The notes under the pieces: model-generated
Told to the model about the DNA's origin: nothing
Seen by the model: the letters and a program-made list of their open reading frames with translations, nothing else
Database searches by the model: none
NCBI GenBank assembly: GCA_001724215.1
Contig: MEDW01000003.1
Location: 1 to 64,000, forward strand
Length of the DNA: 64,000 bases
Source: Erythrobacter sp. SCN 62-14
GTDB taxonomy: Bacteria; Pseudomonadota; Alphaproteobacteria; Sphingomonadales; Sphingomonadaceae
Direction of reading: 5' to 3'
In this document: piece by piece, positions 11,014 to 19,005 of the stretch
Layout of the letters: each line of letters begins with the position of its first letter
How positions within the stretch are numbered: the stretch's first letter is position 1
Position numbers and translations under genes: made by a program

Positions 11014-13161
11014 TTACCCGCGCCGCCATGCGTGGTATTTCTCAACCATTTTCAGCAGCTTTTCCGGCTTTCTTGCGAGTTTCCATTGACCGGCGGCAAA
11101 TTTATTCGCCTCAGCAAAGGTGGGATAGGAATGGATCGTTCCAAGGATCTTGTTCAGCCCCAGCCCGTGTTTCATCGCCAGCACATATTCGGCAAGCAAT
11201 TCGCCCGCATGGGCCGCGACGATCGTCACCCCAAGGATGCGATCCTTGCCGGGCTGGGTGAGCACTTTCACAAATCCGCGCATCTCGCTTTCGGCAATCG
11301 CGCGGTCGAGATCGTCGATTGCATAGCGGGTGACTTCATAAGCGATGCCCTTGGCCTCGGCCTCGCGTTCATTGATCCCGACGCGGGCAAATTCGGGATC
11401 TAGAAAAGTGACTTGCGGGATGACTCTGTAATCGGCTGTGAACTTCTTCAAGTGCCCGAACAGAGCGTTTACAGCGGCATACCACGCCTGATGACTGGCC
11501 ACATGGGTGAGTTGATAGGGCCCTGCCACATCGCCTGCGGCAAAGATATTGGGAAAGCGCGTGGCCAGCAGGCCATCCGTGGAAAGCACGCCTTCGCCCT
11601 CGCCCGCGATCCCCAATTCCTCCAAACCGAAACCCGCCAAGCGCGGCCTCCGCCCCACCGCCACGATCAGCGCATCATAGGCGACGCGCAGTTCATCGCC
11701 TGCGCGCTCGGCTATCACCATGCCTTGCTCAAAGCGTGCGGCGGTGTGGCCTGTCAGCACACGCACTCCTGCTTCTTCGAGCACGGCGGCAGCAAGCTCG
11801 CTGACCTCGGCATCCTCGCGTCCCAACAGCCGATCCGCCTGCTCGATCAGTGTTACCTCTGCACCCAAACGGGCGAAGGCCTGCGCCAATTCGCAGCCAA
11901 TCGGTCCGCCGCCTAGCACGCACAAACGGCGCGGCACTTCATCCATTCGGGCAAAGGCATCCCACATCGTCTCGCTGGTCAGATAGCCCGATGTCTCGAT
12001 GCCGGGGATCGGCGGCACGACCGGTTCGGCGCCGGTGGCAAGGATGATGCTGCGCGTGGTGAGGCGCTGTGTCGTGCCATCGGTCCGTGCGATCTCGATT
12101 GTCCACGGATCAAGGATGCGCGCATAGCCTTGCACCACATCAACGCCCAAACCTTCGTAACGCTCGATCGAATCGTGCGGCTCAATCGCGCGGATCACAT
12201 CGCGCACCCGCTCGATCGTGTCGCGAAAGGGGACCCGTGGACGCACCGGGGCAATCCCGTAGCGATCAGCGCGGCGCATCTGCTGTGCCACTTTGGCAGA
12301 CTTAATCAGCGCCTTGGACGGAACGCAGCCGGTGTTGAGACAATCGCCGCCCATCGCGCCTGCCTCAACCAGCGTTACCTTGGCCTTGACTGTCGCCGCA
12401 ATATAGGAGGACACCAGACCGGCAGCGCCTGCACCAATCACCACCAGATTGCGATCAAACCTTTTGGGGCGGTCAAAGCCCGCATAGGCACGGCGCGCGC
12501 GCAAAGCGCCGATCACCAGTTTGGCCAGCCATGGTGCAATTCCCAAGAGCGCAAACGAGGCGAGCAGCGCGGGCGAGGCAATGCCGGAAAGGCTATCGAT
12601 CCGCGCCAGTTGCGTGCCCGCGTTCACATAGACAATCGTGCCCAGCAGCATCCCCACCTGGCTCACCCACAGGAAGGTGACAAACGGCAGCCGTGTGAGA
12701 CCCATCACCAGATTGACTACAAAGAATGGCACCACCGGGATCATGCGCAAGCTGAACAGATAGAACACTCCGTCGCGCTCCATCCCTGCGTTGATGCTGC
12801 GCAGCCGCTCACCAAAACGCGCTTCTAGCCCATCGCGCAGCACATAGCGTGCCGACAGAAAAGCAAGCCCCGCACCGAGCGTTGAGGCAAAGCTCACCAG
12901 CACTGTGCCCACCACCAGCCCGAACAGCGCGCCCGCTGCCAGCGTCATGATCGCAGCCCCCGGCAGAGATGCTGCCGTTACCGCCACATAAGCGAGAAAG
13001 AACGCCGCCAGCACCACAGCGGGGTTTTCGCTATAGAAGGCATCCCAACCCGCGACTGCCGCCTTCATCCCGTCAAAGGTGAGATATTGCCCGAGGCCAA
13101 ACCCGAAATAGGTGGCCATCACGGCAGCCAAAGCGGCGAGGATGAGAAGCTTTTTGAGCAA
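11014..13161 (-). CDS. TVP38/TMEM64 membrane domain fused to a dihydrolipoamide-dehydrogenase-like FAD oxidoreductase
   Basis: 715 residues from a TTG start at 13161 (AGGAAA just upstream). Residues 1-230 are a TVP38/DedA-type membrane domain (VAVTAASLPGAAIMTLAAG, RMIPVVPFFVVNLVMGL). Residues about 240-700 are a pyridine nucleotide-disulfide oxidoreductase with FAD site GAGAAGLVSSY, redox-active pair in CLNTGCVPSK, NAD(P) site GGGPIGCELAQAFARLG, and the C-terminal HSYPTFAE with the His-Glu catalytic dyad of the interface. This combination is known in scattered bacteria, usually annotated as a mercuric-reductase-like protein; the substrate is not established. There is no MerA N-terminal HMA domain, so mercury reduction is unlikely. 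Confidence 0.88.
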   Translation of the reverse strand: MLKKLLILAALAAVMATYFGFGLGQYLTFDGMKAAVAGWDAFYSENPAVVLAAFFLAYVAVTAASLPGAAIMTLAAGALFGLVVGTVLVSFASTLGAGLAFLSARYVLRDGLEARFGERLRSINAGMERDGVFYLFSLRMIPVVPFFVVNLVMGLTRLPFVTFLWVSQVGMLLGTIVYVNAGTQLARIDSLSGIASPALLASFALLGIAPWLAKLVIGALRARRAYAGFDRPKRFDRNLVVIGAGAAGLVSSYIAATVKAKVTLVEAGAMGGDCLNTGCVPSKALIKSAKVAQQMRRADRYGIAPVRPRVPFRDTIERVRDVIRAIEPHDSIERYEGLGVDVVQGYARILDPWTIEIARTDGTTQRLTTRSIILATGAEPVVPPIPGIETSGYLTSETMWDAFARMDEVPRRLCVLGGGPIGCELAQAFARLGAEVTLIEQADRLLGREDAEVSELAAAVLEEAGVRVLTGHTAARFEQGMVIAERAGDELRVAYDALIVAVGRRPRLAGFGLEELGIAGEGEGVLSTDGLLATRFPNIFAAGDVAGPYQLTHVASHQAWYAAVNALFGHLKKFTADYRVIPQVTFLDPEFARVGINEREAEAKGIAYEVTRYAIDDLDRAIAESEMRGFVKVLTQPGKDRILGVTIVAAHAGELLAEYVLAMKHGLGLNKILGTIHSYPTFAEANKFAAGQWKLARKPEKLLKMVEKYHAWRRG

Positions 13162-14616: not shown

Positions 14617-14725
14617 AACGAGGCAGAGCTTAAGCCTGCCCGCTTCCGGGATGGGACAGGTCGACGCGCTCAATGACAGCGCTCCGCAGCTGCGGATTGA
14701 ACGGGAACACGCCTATGCCGGTTAG
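14609..14725 (+). CDS. Putative 38-residue acidic peptide overlapping the ABC exporter start
   Basis: ATG 14609 overlaps the stop of the preceding small ORF; the TAG at 14723-14725 lies 11 bases inside the ABC gene if that starts at ATG 14715. The peptide (MDETRQSLSLPASGMGQ at the N-terminus, REHAYAG at the C-terminus) is acidic to neutral and cysteine free. A double-glycine leader is not present. It could be an export substrate, a coupling leader or an artefact; only the arrangement supports it. Confidence 0.4.
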   Translation: MDETRQSLSLPASGMGQVDALNDSAPQLRIEREHAYAG

Positions 14726-16481
14726 AAAGCCAACCTATGGCGAAAGTCTATCCCTTTCAAAATTCTTCCGTATTTTCTTTGAGATACTCAAGCCGGAAGG
14801 CAATTTCTACTGGATTGCGATTGTCTATGGCGTGGGCATCAGCGTGCTGGCGCTCGCCACGCCGATCTCGGTGCAACTGCTGATCAGCACGATTGCAAAT
14901 ACCGCAATGCCGGCGCCTTTGGTGATGCTCTCGCTCACTTTGTTCGGCCTGTTGCTGCTATCTTCGCTGCTCTATGCCTTGCGCATCCATCTTATGGAGT
15001 TGTTTGCGCGGCGATTTTACGCACGGCTGGTCAGTGAAATCTCGCTGATTGCGATTTATGCACAAAACCCGTTTTTCACCGACAACACCCGCGCTGCGCT
15101 TTTCAACCGCTATTTCGATGTGATGGTGGTGATGTCGCGGATGCCTATACTGATCCTCGACGGCTATTCGATTTTGCTCGGCATCGGGGTCGGTTTTGTG
15201 CTGGTCTCGCTTTATCACCCGCTATTCCTGATCTTCACACTGGTGATGGTGGCGCTGATCGCGTTGGTCTGGTTCATCTGGGGGCCAAGCGCTGTACGCG
15301 CGTCGATTGACGTCAGCCACGCCAAGCACGCAACGGCTGCATGGCTTGAGCAGGTTGGCGAATCCAACGGCTTTTTCAAATCGCAGCGCCGGATTGACTA
15401 CGCGATCGAGCAAACCGACAAATTCACCCACGGCTACCTCAATGCGCGCAAGCGCTATTTCCGGCTGCATTTTTCGCAGTCGCTCTCATTCCTGTTCATG
15501 TACGCAGCCGCCAGTGCGGTGCTGCTGGGTCTGGGCGGCTGGCTGGTGATCAATTTCGAACTGACGTTGGGTCAGTTGGTGGCTGCCGAACTGGTGCTGT
15601 CTGCGGCGTTTTTCGGCGTGGCGATGCTGGGCAGCTACCTGACCTATTTCTATGACCTGTGTGCCGCAGTTGAAGAAGTTTCGCTGTTCTTCGATGTGGA
15701 GCAGGAAAACCCGCGCGGCGATGATCCGGTCGTGGGGAGCGATCACACGCTCACCTTCAAGGACGCAGGTGGCCAGGCACGCTTTGAAAAGGCCAATTTC
15801 AATTTCTCGCTTCCGACTGGCTCGATCACCATGGCTGCAACCAGCCAGCATGGCTTGCAACGCCTCTTCACCAACATCCTCAAGCTTTATGAACTGCCTG
15901 CCAATGGCTACACCACGCTGGGCGGGGTCGATTTGAAAGAGATCGAAACCCATCACCTGCGCCGATCGGTCTATGTGCTTGACCGGCCCAGCTTTGTGCC
16001 GATGACCGTGCGCGAATATCTCGGGCTTGCCTGTGACAAGGGCGATAGCTGGCGGATTGTCGAAGCGTTGGAGACAGTCGGTCTTGCCAGCACGATTGCG
16101 AGCTTTGAAAAAGGTCTCGACACCAAGATCGCTGCAACTGGCTATCCGCTGTCCACTGCCGAACTGCTTATGCTCAAACTGGCCAGTGCCATTCTTGCCA
16201 AGCCCAAGATTCTGGTGCTCACACGCCTATTTGATCTGATCGACGAACGTGATCTCAGCCGCACTTTTGCCGCGCTCAAGGAGCAGTCAAACACCACGGT
16301 GATCTATTTCTCCGACCGCGACAATCCGCTGGGCTGTGACCGGTTTCTTCATATGCAGGCCAGCACACAGACTTTCTATGACGATTTCGCCGAATTCCGC
16401 CGGGCCAGTCGAACGGTCCGGCCAAGTGGGCCTGATCCGCGCCGCTTGCTTGACGGCAGCCCCTCCAGCGGAGAGCAATAA
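14715..16481 (+). CDS. ABC-type exporter subunit with degenerate, probably inactive ATPase domain
   Basis: 588 residues (alternative ATG 14673 adds 14). Residues 20-310 are a six-helix ABC exporter membrane domain. Residues about 345-560 keep the layout of the nucleotide-binding domain but lose every catalytic motif. The Walker A position (about 371-382) reads AATSQHGLQRLF with no GxGKS/T. The signature is LSTAE instead of LSGGQ. Walker B is ILVLTRLFD, with neither the Asp nor the catalytic Glu of ILVLDE. It can hardly hydrolyse ATP alone. It sits in an operon with HlyD- and TolC-type genes (one-base overlap with the former), so the type 1 secretion architecture is kept. Either another ATPase drives it or it works without ATP hydrolysis. 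Confidence 0.85.
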   Translation: MPVRKPTYGESLSLSKFFRIFFEILKPEGNFYWIAIVYGVGISVLALATPISVQLLISTIANTAMPAPLVMLSLTLFGLLLLSSLLYALRIHLMELFARRFYARLVSEISLIAIYAQNPFFTDNTRAALFNRYFDVMVVMSRMPILILDGYSILLGIGVGFVLVSLYHPLFLIFTLVMVALIALVWFIWGPSAVRASIDVSHAKHATAAWLEQVGESNGFFKSQRRIDYAIEQTDKFTHGYLNARKRYFRLHFSQSLSFLFMYAAASAVLLGLGGWLVINFELTLGQLVAAELVLSAAFFGVAMLGSYLTYFYDLCAAVEEVSLFFDVEQENPRGDDPVVGSDHTLTFKDAGGQARFEKANFNFSLPTGSITMAATSQHGLQRLFTNILKLYELPANGYTTLGGVDLKEIETHHLRRSVYVLDRPSFVPMTVREYLGLACDKGDSWRIVEALETVGLASTIASFEKGLDTKIAATGYPLSTAELLMLKLASAILAKPKILVLTRLFDLIDERDLSRTFAALKEQSNTTVIYFSDRDNPLGCDRFLHMQASTQTFYDDFAEFRRASRTVRPSGPDPRRLLDGSPSSGEQ

Positions 16482-17512
16482 TGGCAACGCTTGGCAATGC
16501 TCCACCGCGCTTCACGGCGCTTGAATCGGTTCAGATTCCCCGCGTCATGCGCACCATCTTCGTGATGCTGCTGACCGGATTTGTGCTGTCGTTGATCTTT
16601 CTGATCTATGTGCCTTGGGTACAGACCACCACCGGACGCGGCGTGGTTACCACCTTAAGCCCCAATGAGCGCGAACAGTCGATCAACGCGCTCGTTACCG
16701 GGCGGATTGAGGAATGGTATGTGCGCGATGGGGCCAAAGTGACGAAAGGCGATCCGATTGTCCGGATTGCAGATATCGACCCCCAATTGATCGACCGACT
16801 CGAAGCAGAAGTGCGCCAAGTCGAATTGCAACTCGACGCCTCGCGCAGCGCTTTGGCAACCGCGCAGATTGACGAACGCCGCGCGCGCGAGTTGTTTGAG
16901 GCAGGGCTTGCGCCGCGGCGCGACTACGAACAGGCGATGATCCGCATTCAGGATATGCGCGGCAAAGTCGCCAGTGACGAGGCAGCATTGGCCCGCGCCC
17001 GGGTCAACCTGTCGCGTCAGGCCGTGCAGATTGTCACCGCCCCGCGCGATGGCTTTATCCAGAAAGTGCAGGCAGGCGACGCAGCGACTTTTGTGCGGGC
17101 CGGCGATATGCTGGCAATGTTCGTGCCCGAAAGTTCCGAAAGGGTGGTTGAAGTCTTTATCAACGGCCTTGATGTGGGCCTTGTGCAAGTGGGCGCCAAG
17201 GCGCGCATCATGTTTGAAGGCTGGCCAGCAGTGCAGTTCAGCGGGTGGCCGGCCGTGGCTGTTGGCACGTTTGGCGGTGAGGTGATTTCAATCGATCAGG
17301 CATCGCAGCCCAATGGCCGGTTTCGCGTGCTGATTCGCGAGGACAAGACCGATCCCAACCCCTGGCCGGAAGAACGCTTTGTCCGCTTTGGCGCCAAGGC
17401 GCAGGCATGGGTGCTGCTCAACACTGTGCCGGTAGGCTATGAAATCTGGCGTCAGCTCAACAGCTTCCCACCCGAATTGCCGGGCGCTCCGGCGGGTTCG
17501 GGGGATCGCTAA
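16481..17512 (+). CDS. HlyD-family membrane fusion protein (periplasmic adaptor)
   Basis: 343 residues. A single N-terminal anchor (about 25-47) is followed by the split lipoyl/barrel-sandwich halves (ALVTGRIEEWYVRDGAKVTKGDPI and APRDGFIQKVQAGDAATF) that flank a predicted coiled-coil hairpin at about residues 105-175 (charged, E/R/A rich). Adaptors of this type bridge an inner-membrane exporter to an outer-membrane TolC channel. It overlaps the ABC gene by one base and lies five bases before the TolC-type gene. Confidence 0.92.
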   Translation: MATLGNAPPRFTALESVQIPRVMRTIFVMLLTGFVLSLIFLIYVPWVQTTTGRGVVTTLSPNEREQSINALVTGRIEEWYVRDGAKVTKGDPIVRIADIDPQLIDRLEAEVRQVELQLDASRSALATAQIDERRARELFEAGLAPRRDYEQAMIRIQDMRGKVASDEAALARARVNLSRQAVQIVTAPRDGFIQKVQAGDAATFVRAGDMLAMFVPESSERVVEVFINGLDVGLVQVGAKARIMFEGWPAVQFSGWPAVAVGTFGGEVISIDQASQPNGRFRVLIREDKTDPNPWPEERFVRFGAKAQAWVLLNTVPVGYEIWRQLNSFPPELPGAPAGSGDR

Positions 17513-17517
17513 AAGCC

Positions 17518-19005
17518 ATGATGCGCTTTGGGGCCTGTTTGCTGCTCTTGTCGCTGGTTGCACCGGCGGCGCTGGTGCTGCCCGCAGCGCCGGGCGCAGC
17601 GCAGGACATTGCGCCAGTGGGCGAGCCGATGGATATTGCCCTGCGGCAAGGCACGCTCTTGCCTCAGCAAGTGCTGCGCTCATCATCGCTGACCTTTCCG
17701 GCAATCCTTGAAGCTTTCGAGCGTGAGGCGGCTGCCCGAGGTGATCAATTATCCGCCGATGGTGCGTTTGATCTGATGCTGCGCGGTGAAGTGTTTGATC
17801 GCATCACCGGCACTTTCGATGGCGGCTTTGCTTCGACCGAAGCGCGTCAGGCGCTGCGCCCGCTGGGGGCTGAGGTGTTCGCCTCTTATCGGGTGGCGCG
17901 TGGACGGTTTCCCACTTCTGAAAGCGGTTTCAACACCACCGAACTCGGCCAAATGCGGATCGGCGCGATGTTCTCCCTGCTGCGCGACCGGCGGATCGAC
18001 CAGCGGCGTTTTGCGATCGAGGACACGCGCCTGGCTGCCGGGCAAGCCAGCATCGACGTGCTGCTGGTGCAATTGAATGTCCAGGCCGAAGCCTTGCGGG
18101 CCTATTGGCGGTGGGTGGCAGCGGGCGAGGAAGTGCGGGTATTCGAGGAGTTGCTCGAAATCGCAGAAGCCCGTCAAGTCGGCCTCGCTCGCGGCGTGCG
18201 CGAGGGCGCGACGGCGGAAATCGCGCTCACCGAAAATGAGCAGAACCTGCTCAGGCGGCGCACGCTGCTGGAAGAGGCGCGGCGGAATTTCGAGACGGCG
18301 GCAAATTCGCTGAGCTTTTTCCTGCGCGATTCGTCAGGGCAGATGATTGTCCCGCGGCGTGCGCAGATTCCTTCACTTCAGCAAATCGCCCGGCTGCCTA
18401 CCACGGATGAATTGCTGGCCGCACCGCGCAACGAGGTGCTGGAGCGGCGCCCGGAACTGCGCACCTTGCGGCTGGCAAGCGAACGAGCGGCCAACCGCAT
18501 CGAATTGCGGCGCAATGATCTCCAGCCCTCGCTCCAAGGCCGAGCCGAAGTGCGCCAATCGTTCGGCGATGGCCCCGTCGGCATGGCCACCTTCGATTCG
18601 GCAACCGATACGCTGGTGGGCCTCACCTTCTCGGTTCCGCTGCAACGCCGCGAGGCACGCGGGCGCTTGGCACGGGCCGAGGCGGAACTGCGCGAGCTGG
18701 AACTGCGAGAGCGGCGCATTGCCGATCAGATCGAGGTTGAGATCGACAACATTCTGGCAACCCTCAACGCCGCGATCCGGGTCTCCTCGCTCGCGCAGGA
18801 CGAAGTGCGACAGGCCACCACCATGGTGCAGGCCGAGCGCACACGGTTTCGCCTGGGCGCGGGGGATTTCTTCCTTGTGAACCTGCGTGAAGAAGCCGCC
18901 GCGGATGCGCAGGTGCGTGCGATCCGCGCGGAACTTTCGGGCAGACTGGCTGCAGCCAATTACAACGCAGCCACGATCAACCTGCCCGAACTCGGCCTTG
19001 AATAA
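17518..19005 (+). CDS. TolC-family outer-membrane efflux/secretion channel
   Basis: 495 residues with an N-terminal signal peptide (cleavage near AAPGAAQ-DI). The two long repeats of the outer membrane efflux protein fold are visible as Ala/Glu/Arg/Leu-rich helices (about 170-270 and 385-480), each ending near a leucine-rich turn. It completes a tripartite export apparatus with the two preceding genes. The stop codon is embedded in a short hairpin (GGCCTT-GAAT-AAGGCC, 18994-19009), a possible weak terminator before the convergent acs gene. Confidence 0.9.
   Translation: MMRFGACLLLLSLVAPAALVLPAAPGAAQDIAPVGEPMDIALRQGTLLPQQVLRSSSLTFPAILEAFEREAAARGDQLSADGAFDLMLRGEVFDRITGTFDGGFASTEARQALRPLGAEVFASYRVARGRFPTSESGFNTTELGQMRIGAMFSLLRDRRIDQRRFAIEDTRLAAGQASIDVLLVQLNVQAEALRAYWRWVAAGEEVRVFEELLEIAEARQVGLARGVREGATAEIALTENEQNLLRRRTLLEEARRNFETAANSLSFFLRDSSGQMIVPRRAQIPSLQQIARLPTTDELLAAPRNEVLERRPELRTLRLASERAANRIELRRNDLQPSLQGRAEVRQSFGDGPVGMATFDSATDTLVGLTFSVPLQRREARGRLARAEAELRELELRERRIADQIEVEIDNILATLNAAIRVSSLAQDEVRQATTMVQAERTRFRLGAGDFFLVNLREEAAADAQVRAIRAELSGRLAAANYNAATINLPELGLE

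Follow-up and report, generated by a model that had tools for sequence, protein, structure and literature searches.

An ABC exporter family without ATPase motifs in an HlyD–TolC operon of Alpha- and Gammaproteobacteria

Introduction

What can an ABC exporter do when every motif of its ATPase has been erased and the rest of its export operon is complete? The question is raised by a gene of Erythrobacter sp. SCN 62-14, which lies in the 64,000-nucleotide stretch of DNA analysed here (contig MEDW01000003.1, positions 1 to 64,000; the window). A reading of these letters alone, hereafter the sequence-only reading, had described an intact ABC domain outline from which Walker A, LSGGQ and Walker B were gone, next to an intact HlyD adaptor and TolC channel, and had considered another source of energy, a missing active partner, or a role in structure or sensing. 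In the open-licence PubMed Central literature, no paper was found on exporters that, as a family, lack all ATPase motifs.

Results

Boundaries and fold of the ABC gene

The gene, designated pseudo-ABC, encodes an ABC exporter half-transporter of 588 aa (14715–16481, + strand) within a reading frame that is open from 14673 to 16481 (602 aa). The start at 14715 ('MPVRKPTYGESLSL'), the one chosen in the sequence-only reading, was backed by the N-termini of the orthologues ('MPLNQPTYGAQISL' and 'MAVEAPSYGSQISL').

The transmembrane domain (TMD; 14754–15656, +; residues 28–328, numbered on the 602-aa frame) was predicted to contain six helices by the AlphaFold2 secondary structure and matched Pfam ABC_membrane at 3.5e-11. 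It is followed by a degenerate nucleotide-binding domain (NBD; 15744–16382, +), whose fold was predicted with high confidence by AlphaFold2 and recognized by Foldseek. The Pfam ABC_tran match to this domain reached 19.3 bits against a cut-off of 25, and the first 30 profile positions, including Walker A, were unmatched. The type I secretion permease/ATPase models of NCBIfam covered the whole length of the protein (TIGR03375, 2.6e-21), with a score of 75.6 bits, below the curated cut-off of 693.1 for an ATPase of a type I secretion system (T1SS). By sequence, the closest solved relatives were ABC exporters.

An AlphaFold2 model was built from a 46-sequence family alignment. Its mean pLDDT was 80.5, rising to about 93–96 over most of the NBD, which was preceded by six long helices. 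Comparison of the model with the PDB using Foldseek returned PCAT1, HlyB, TM287/288, TmrAB and further type I exporters (best E, about 1e-17). The TM-scores were moderate, at about 0.55 and an rmsd of 13 A, probably because the placement of the TMD relative to the NBD is uncertain in a monomer model. The domain outline described earlier was thus confirmed: a six-helix ABC_membrane domain and then an NBD fold, as in type I exporters. What the window protein lacks of that class is Walker A, the signature, Walker B and the catalytic Glu.

Erased motifs and their substitutes

Comparison of motifs across the family located each loss. Walker A (15840–15863, +) reads TSQHGLQR for GxxGxGKS/T, with Q396 at the Lys position and R397 at the Ser/Thr position. 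The signature (16146–16163, +) reads PLSTAE for LSGGQ, the family consensus being PLSxxE. Walker B with the catalytic Glu (16212–16235, +) reads LVLTRLFD, with Thr for Asp and Arg for Glu. These three losses were as first described, and two more were added: the Q-loop (15975–15989, +) is replaced by a conserved VLDRP, and the H-loop (16308–16319, +) by FSDR, following a family pattern F-S/T-N-R that lacks the switch His.

Counts were taken over 96 pseudo-ABC sequences, no two of them identical. The Walker A Lys was absent in 96/96 (Q in 59, E in 27 and D in 10), and so was the Walker B Asp (S, T, N, G or A instead). The signature GG, including the first Gly, was present in 0/96, and Glu stood at the catalytic position in 3/96. 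Sequencing error was rejected as the cause of the loss, which is common to all 96 orthologues.

Conserved alternative residues in homologues, a check proposed with the sequence-only reading, were found. Arg occupied the R397 position in 88/96 sequences, the Arg of LDRP was kept in 95/96, E497 was kept in 85/96, and D521, four residues past the Walker B Asp position, was invariant (96/96). The conservation of this set indicated that the NBD is not free to drift.

Such residues may also be read as a site for a different ligand, or as a cryptic nucleotide site that serves regulatory binding and not hydrolysis. The Gln/Glu/Asp–Arg pair of the P-loop, the LDRP that stands in the Q-loop and the invariant Asp after Walker B do look like replacement rather than drift. 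On the other hand, we know of no nucleotide site that has this pattern, and we consider this explanation improbable.

Selection rather than decay

A decayed copy, or frameshifts elsewhere in the operon, had been named as the finding that would undo the sequence-only reading. Decay would account for the absence of every ATPase motif, and in one genome of the same genus (G014) the gene is indeed split over two frames. However, widespread orthologues carry the same substitutions as the window protein, and no frameshift was seen within the ABC–HlyD–TolC operon of the window. Furthermore, dN/dS of the NBD between close orthologue pairs was about 0.03–0.18, far under 1, as under strong purifying selection. 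Mere decay is therefore refuted for the family, and we leave it next to no probability.

The split G014 orthologue (L029/L056, contig C259) spans two overlapping frames, through a genuine frameshift or an error of assembly, and was the only clearly broken copy noticed.

The two domains differed in conservation. Mean column identity in pseudo-ABC was 0.69 in the TMD and 0.54 in the NBD, whereas the order was opposite in type I secretion outgroups (TMD, 0.67; NBD, 0.76). A less conserved NBD is expected if catalysis was dropped and the fold kept.

Distribution of the family

Among 60 relatives, the gene was present in most genomes of the same genus and was also met in several further families of the order. 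Profile searches placed the family in Alpha- and Gammaproteobacteria, with carriers in Erythrobacter, Porphyrobacter, Novosphingobium, Sphingomonas, Sphingobium, Blastomonas, Parvularcula, Hyphomonadaceae, Kordiimonas, Methylobacterium, Caulobacter, Halieaceae, Woeseiaceae and Xanthomonas. The wider groupings with orthologues include Erythrobacteraceae, other Sphingomonadales, Parvularculaceae and Kordiimonadaceae. In the scan of genome contigs, a single-protein query gave no match and a profile query gave matches; the 565 stretches confirmed in the profile scan are not all members, since ordinary ABC exporters also pass E 1e-3.

The distribution is patchy. Only 3/289 alphaproteobacterial genomes drawn across the class had the gene, and each of these belongs to the window's own family. 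Plasmids of sphingomonads also carry pseudo-ABC, and these copies are annotated as 'ABC transporter ATP-binding protein' or 'ABC transporter transmembrane domain-containing protein'. Two genomes each had two diverged copies on different contigs (L122/L130 and L149/L159).

Taken as a whole, we hold with high confidence that pseudo-ABC constitutes a conserved family of pseudo-ATPase exporters.

The operon and its neighbours

Downstream of pseudo-ABC are genes for a HlyD-family periplasmic adaptor of 343 aa (16481–17512, +; Pfam and NCBIfam) and a TolC-family outer-membrane factor of 495 aa with two OEP repeats (17518–19005, +; Pfam). Both have intact domains, as had been stated. The claim that the genes overlap held for the ABC/HlyD pair, which share 1 nt (TAATG, 16479–16483), but not for HlyD and TolC, which are separated by 5 nt.

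An ABC exporter-like protein with an HlyD-family adaptor and a TolC-family channel is the T1SS gene set in layout only; the ATP-driven inner-membrane exporter of a T1SS is lacking, because the ATPase motifs are absent. The adaptor scored 78.3 bits with TIGR01843 (NCBIfam), under the curated cut-off of 208.65.

The layout is well kept. BLAST comparison of 89 loci found HlyD in 88/89 and TolC in 85/89. Of the four loci without TolC, two (L122 and L123) are cut by contig ends, the sister-clade locus L080 has a divergent TolC-like gene, and the Methylobacterium locus L136 has no TolC within 6 kb.

In the flanks of the operon loci, no gene for an RTX protein or any other protein substrate was seen to be conserved. 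In several lineages, genes for LysR-type regulators lie directly beside the operon; their nearest models were OxyR or NhaR, under the model cut-offs, and one is annotated as 'hydrogen peroxide-inducible genes activator'. These neighbours suggest regulated small-molecule efflux rather than protein secretion. A small molecule is the probable cargo, as judged from the LysR (OxyR-like or NhaR-like) neighbourhood only.

Other neighbours were noted. In the window, 11014–13161 (−) encodes a VTT (TVP38/TMEM64-like) membrane domain fused to a pyridine nucleotide-disulphide oxidoreductase, and many genomes of the genus keep this fusion next to the operon. A functional link to the adjacent FAD oxidoreductase was rejected: the oxidoreductase is present in relatives without pseudo-ABC (G005, G007, G009, G027 and G030) and is unlinked to pseudo-ABC in G020 and G024, so that its adjacency in Erythrobacter is plain synteny.

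On the Sphingobium plasmid pHAL16 (L214, 1362–5664), the pseudo-ABC operon is preceded, at a distance of 44 bp, by a gene for DUF2309, the DabA inorganic-carbon protein family. Another Sphingobium (L149) has a gene of comparable size (850 aa) in this place. On a Sphingobium baderi plasmid (L212, 1512–7637), HxsB/HxsC His-Xaa-Ser radical SAM maturases, an S8 peptidase and an AAA ATPase are encoded directly upstream of the operon.

The neighbourhood bears on the view that the dead ABC protein is a structural or sensory platform, which would anchor HlyD and TolC and gate or sense, with a separate energised transporter (MFS, RND or P-type) delivering the substrate. Fold and operon have been retained without catalysis, and the new set of conserved NBD residues could bind another ligand or a protein. 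However, no transporter gene is conserved with the operon across lineages, and the adjacent oxidoreductase of the genus is there by synteny, its presence being unlinked. We regard a platform as unlikely, if somewhat less so than the ligand site discussed above.

Search for an active partner

Pseudo-ABC might instead be the degenerate half of a heterodimer, in which an active ABC exporter encoded elsewhere would hydrolyse ATP. Heterodimers with one degenerate site are frequent among type I exporters (PMC7756269), and the window's own genome has two intact fused exporters, one MsbA/ABCB-like and one Atm1-like. In the degenerate exporters covered by that review the lesions of both NBDs share one site, leaving the other active (PMC7756269), whereas a half that lacks Walker A, Walker B and the signature would leave neither site complete.

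The gene content also argued against this explanation. BLAST of the flanks at the 89 loci found no second ABC gene related to pseudo-ABC, and the operon of the sister clade (below) has no partner either. These two were the only other fused ABC exporters in the window's genome, and the closed genomes G031 and G003 have a total of three fused exporters each, pseudo-ABC and two housekeeping types. Both housekeeping types are also present in G012, a relative without pseudo-ABC.

From this content of fused exporters, a dedicated active partner appears unlikely, and the missing partner considered in the sequence-only reading thus found no support. The heterodimer as a whole has, in our judgement, a small probability.

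A sister clade with Walker A

The maximum-likelihood tree resolved a monophyletic pseudo clade (SH-aLRT 99) and a sister clade (98), consisting of G417 and relatives from one family of the same phylum. A long branch with full support separates the two clades jointly from the rest; as the tree was built by a quick method and carries a long-branch warning, their distance from the type I secretion outgroup is imprecise.

The sister clade has the same ABC–HlyD–TolC operon. It retains a GxxGxGKS Walker A and the Walker B Asp; the signature glycines are gone (PLSTTQ), and the catalytic Glu is replaced by Gly (Asp in one). A 594-aa gene after HlyD in G417 was considered as a partner and rejected, its product being a TolC-like protein; no partner ABC gene was found in the sister-clade operon.

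Since Walker A and the Walker B Asp are kept where the signature glycines and the catalytic Glu are not, hydrolysis would have been lost before binding. On the simplest reading, loss of the signature and the catalytic Glu preceded that of nucleotide binding.

His182, Trp200, Trp203 and Tyr322 are invariant or nearly so in the pseudo clade and different in the sister clade; His182, at the TM3–TM4 turn, is invariant and specific to the pseudo clade. These four residues are candidates for changes that accompanied the loss of ATP binding.

Glu306 in TM6 (GQLVAAE; codon at 15588–15590, +) behaved differently in the family alignment. It is invariant in the pseudo family and also in the sister clade, and is Asn in 13/15 type I secretion outgroups. 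Because the sister clade, with Walker A intact, shares it, Glu306 was not gained with motif loss. It is a candidate for a role in ion coupling.

Discussion

HlyB, PrtD and LssB/TIGR03375, the type I secretion exporters that work with HlyD and TolC, resemble the window system in domain order, fold, three-gene tripartite layout and full-length profile matches. The window system differs from theirs in that all ATPase motifs are erased, it forms a separate clade, its adaptor is short (343 aa), no linked RTX substrate was seen, and its LysR neighbours suggest efflux.

Mutated catalytic residues in an ABC exporter fold are also found in TM287/288, TmrAB, TAP, ABCC7 and Pdr5. These keep one competent site, whereas a pseudo-ABC homodimer would have both erased, and no partner gene was found.

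A third comparison is with LmrA-MD and MsbA-MD, ABC exporter membrane domains which, like pseudo-ABC, have no usable NBD and for which secondary-active transport has been shown (PMC2704374, PMC4979069). Those are laboratory truncations, whereas pseudo-ABC keeps the NBD fold and its state is natural and old. Without NBDs, the membrane domains of LmrA and MsbA act as proton-coupled drug transporters; LmrA requires Glu314 in TM6, and in MsbA a bound, unhydrolysed nucleotide blocks proton-driven transport (PMC2704374, PMC6155054, PMC4979069). MsbA-MD is less efficient than the wild type, and the NBD-less forms of both are engineered. Glu306 is not claimed as the exact equivalent of LmrA Glu314: the two are in the same helix, about 16 residues apart when counted back from Walker A.

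We favour, with some reservation, a conserved tripartite exporter whose inner-membrane subunit is a pseudo-ATPase and which transports without ATP at its own sites as the best explanation of the whole. In a type I ABC exporter ancestor, the NBDs would have lost ATP hydrolysis and then ATP binding. They would have been kept by selection in folded form, to dimerise and hold the gate on the cytosolic side. Pseudo-ABC would then act as a homodimer without using ATP at its own sites, and its TMD may pass cargo into the HlyD–TolC duct, driven by an ion gradient or a substrate gradient.

That transport is specifically ATP-independent, and gradient-driven or gated, we put at slightly under an even chance. 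More tentative still is the particular scenario of an ABC exporter lineage that naturally abandoned ATP and became an ion-gradient-driven pump within an HlyD–TolC system, with hydrolysis lost first (the sister state), then binding, and a new residue set installed in the old nucleotide site. By analogy with MsbA, in which unhydrolysed nucleotide blocks transport, a lineage that had lost hydrolysis might gain by losing binding as well, which would fit the order suggested by the sister clade.

The family has probably been met before under another name. HlyBD2-OMP2 of Blastomonas fulva T2 was described as an HlyB toxin-secretion/efflux ABC pump, with no mention of motif loss; the word 'Walker' appears in that paper as an author name only (PMC9505733). 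Its gene order and sizes (1659, 1053 and 1503 bp) fit the pseudo-ABC operon, and other Blastomonas genomes carry the family; on these grounds it is probably a member. Sphingomonad and xanthomonad genes annotated as 'ABC transporter ATP-binding protein' or HlyB are thus mis-described.

ABC transporters are defined by their ATPase, and pseudo-ABC is widespread and under selection without any ATPase motif, in a complete export operon. A motor without its ATPase parts in a conserved, selected family points to an export pump that is powered or used in a non-textbook way. The family offers a natural test of whether the membrane domains of ABC exporters can run on ion gradients, a claim for which the support has so far come from work on LmrA and MsbA, in part with engineered forms that lack the NBD. 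For such a test, the sister clade with its intact Walker A and the pseudo clade constitute a before-and-after pair.
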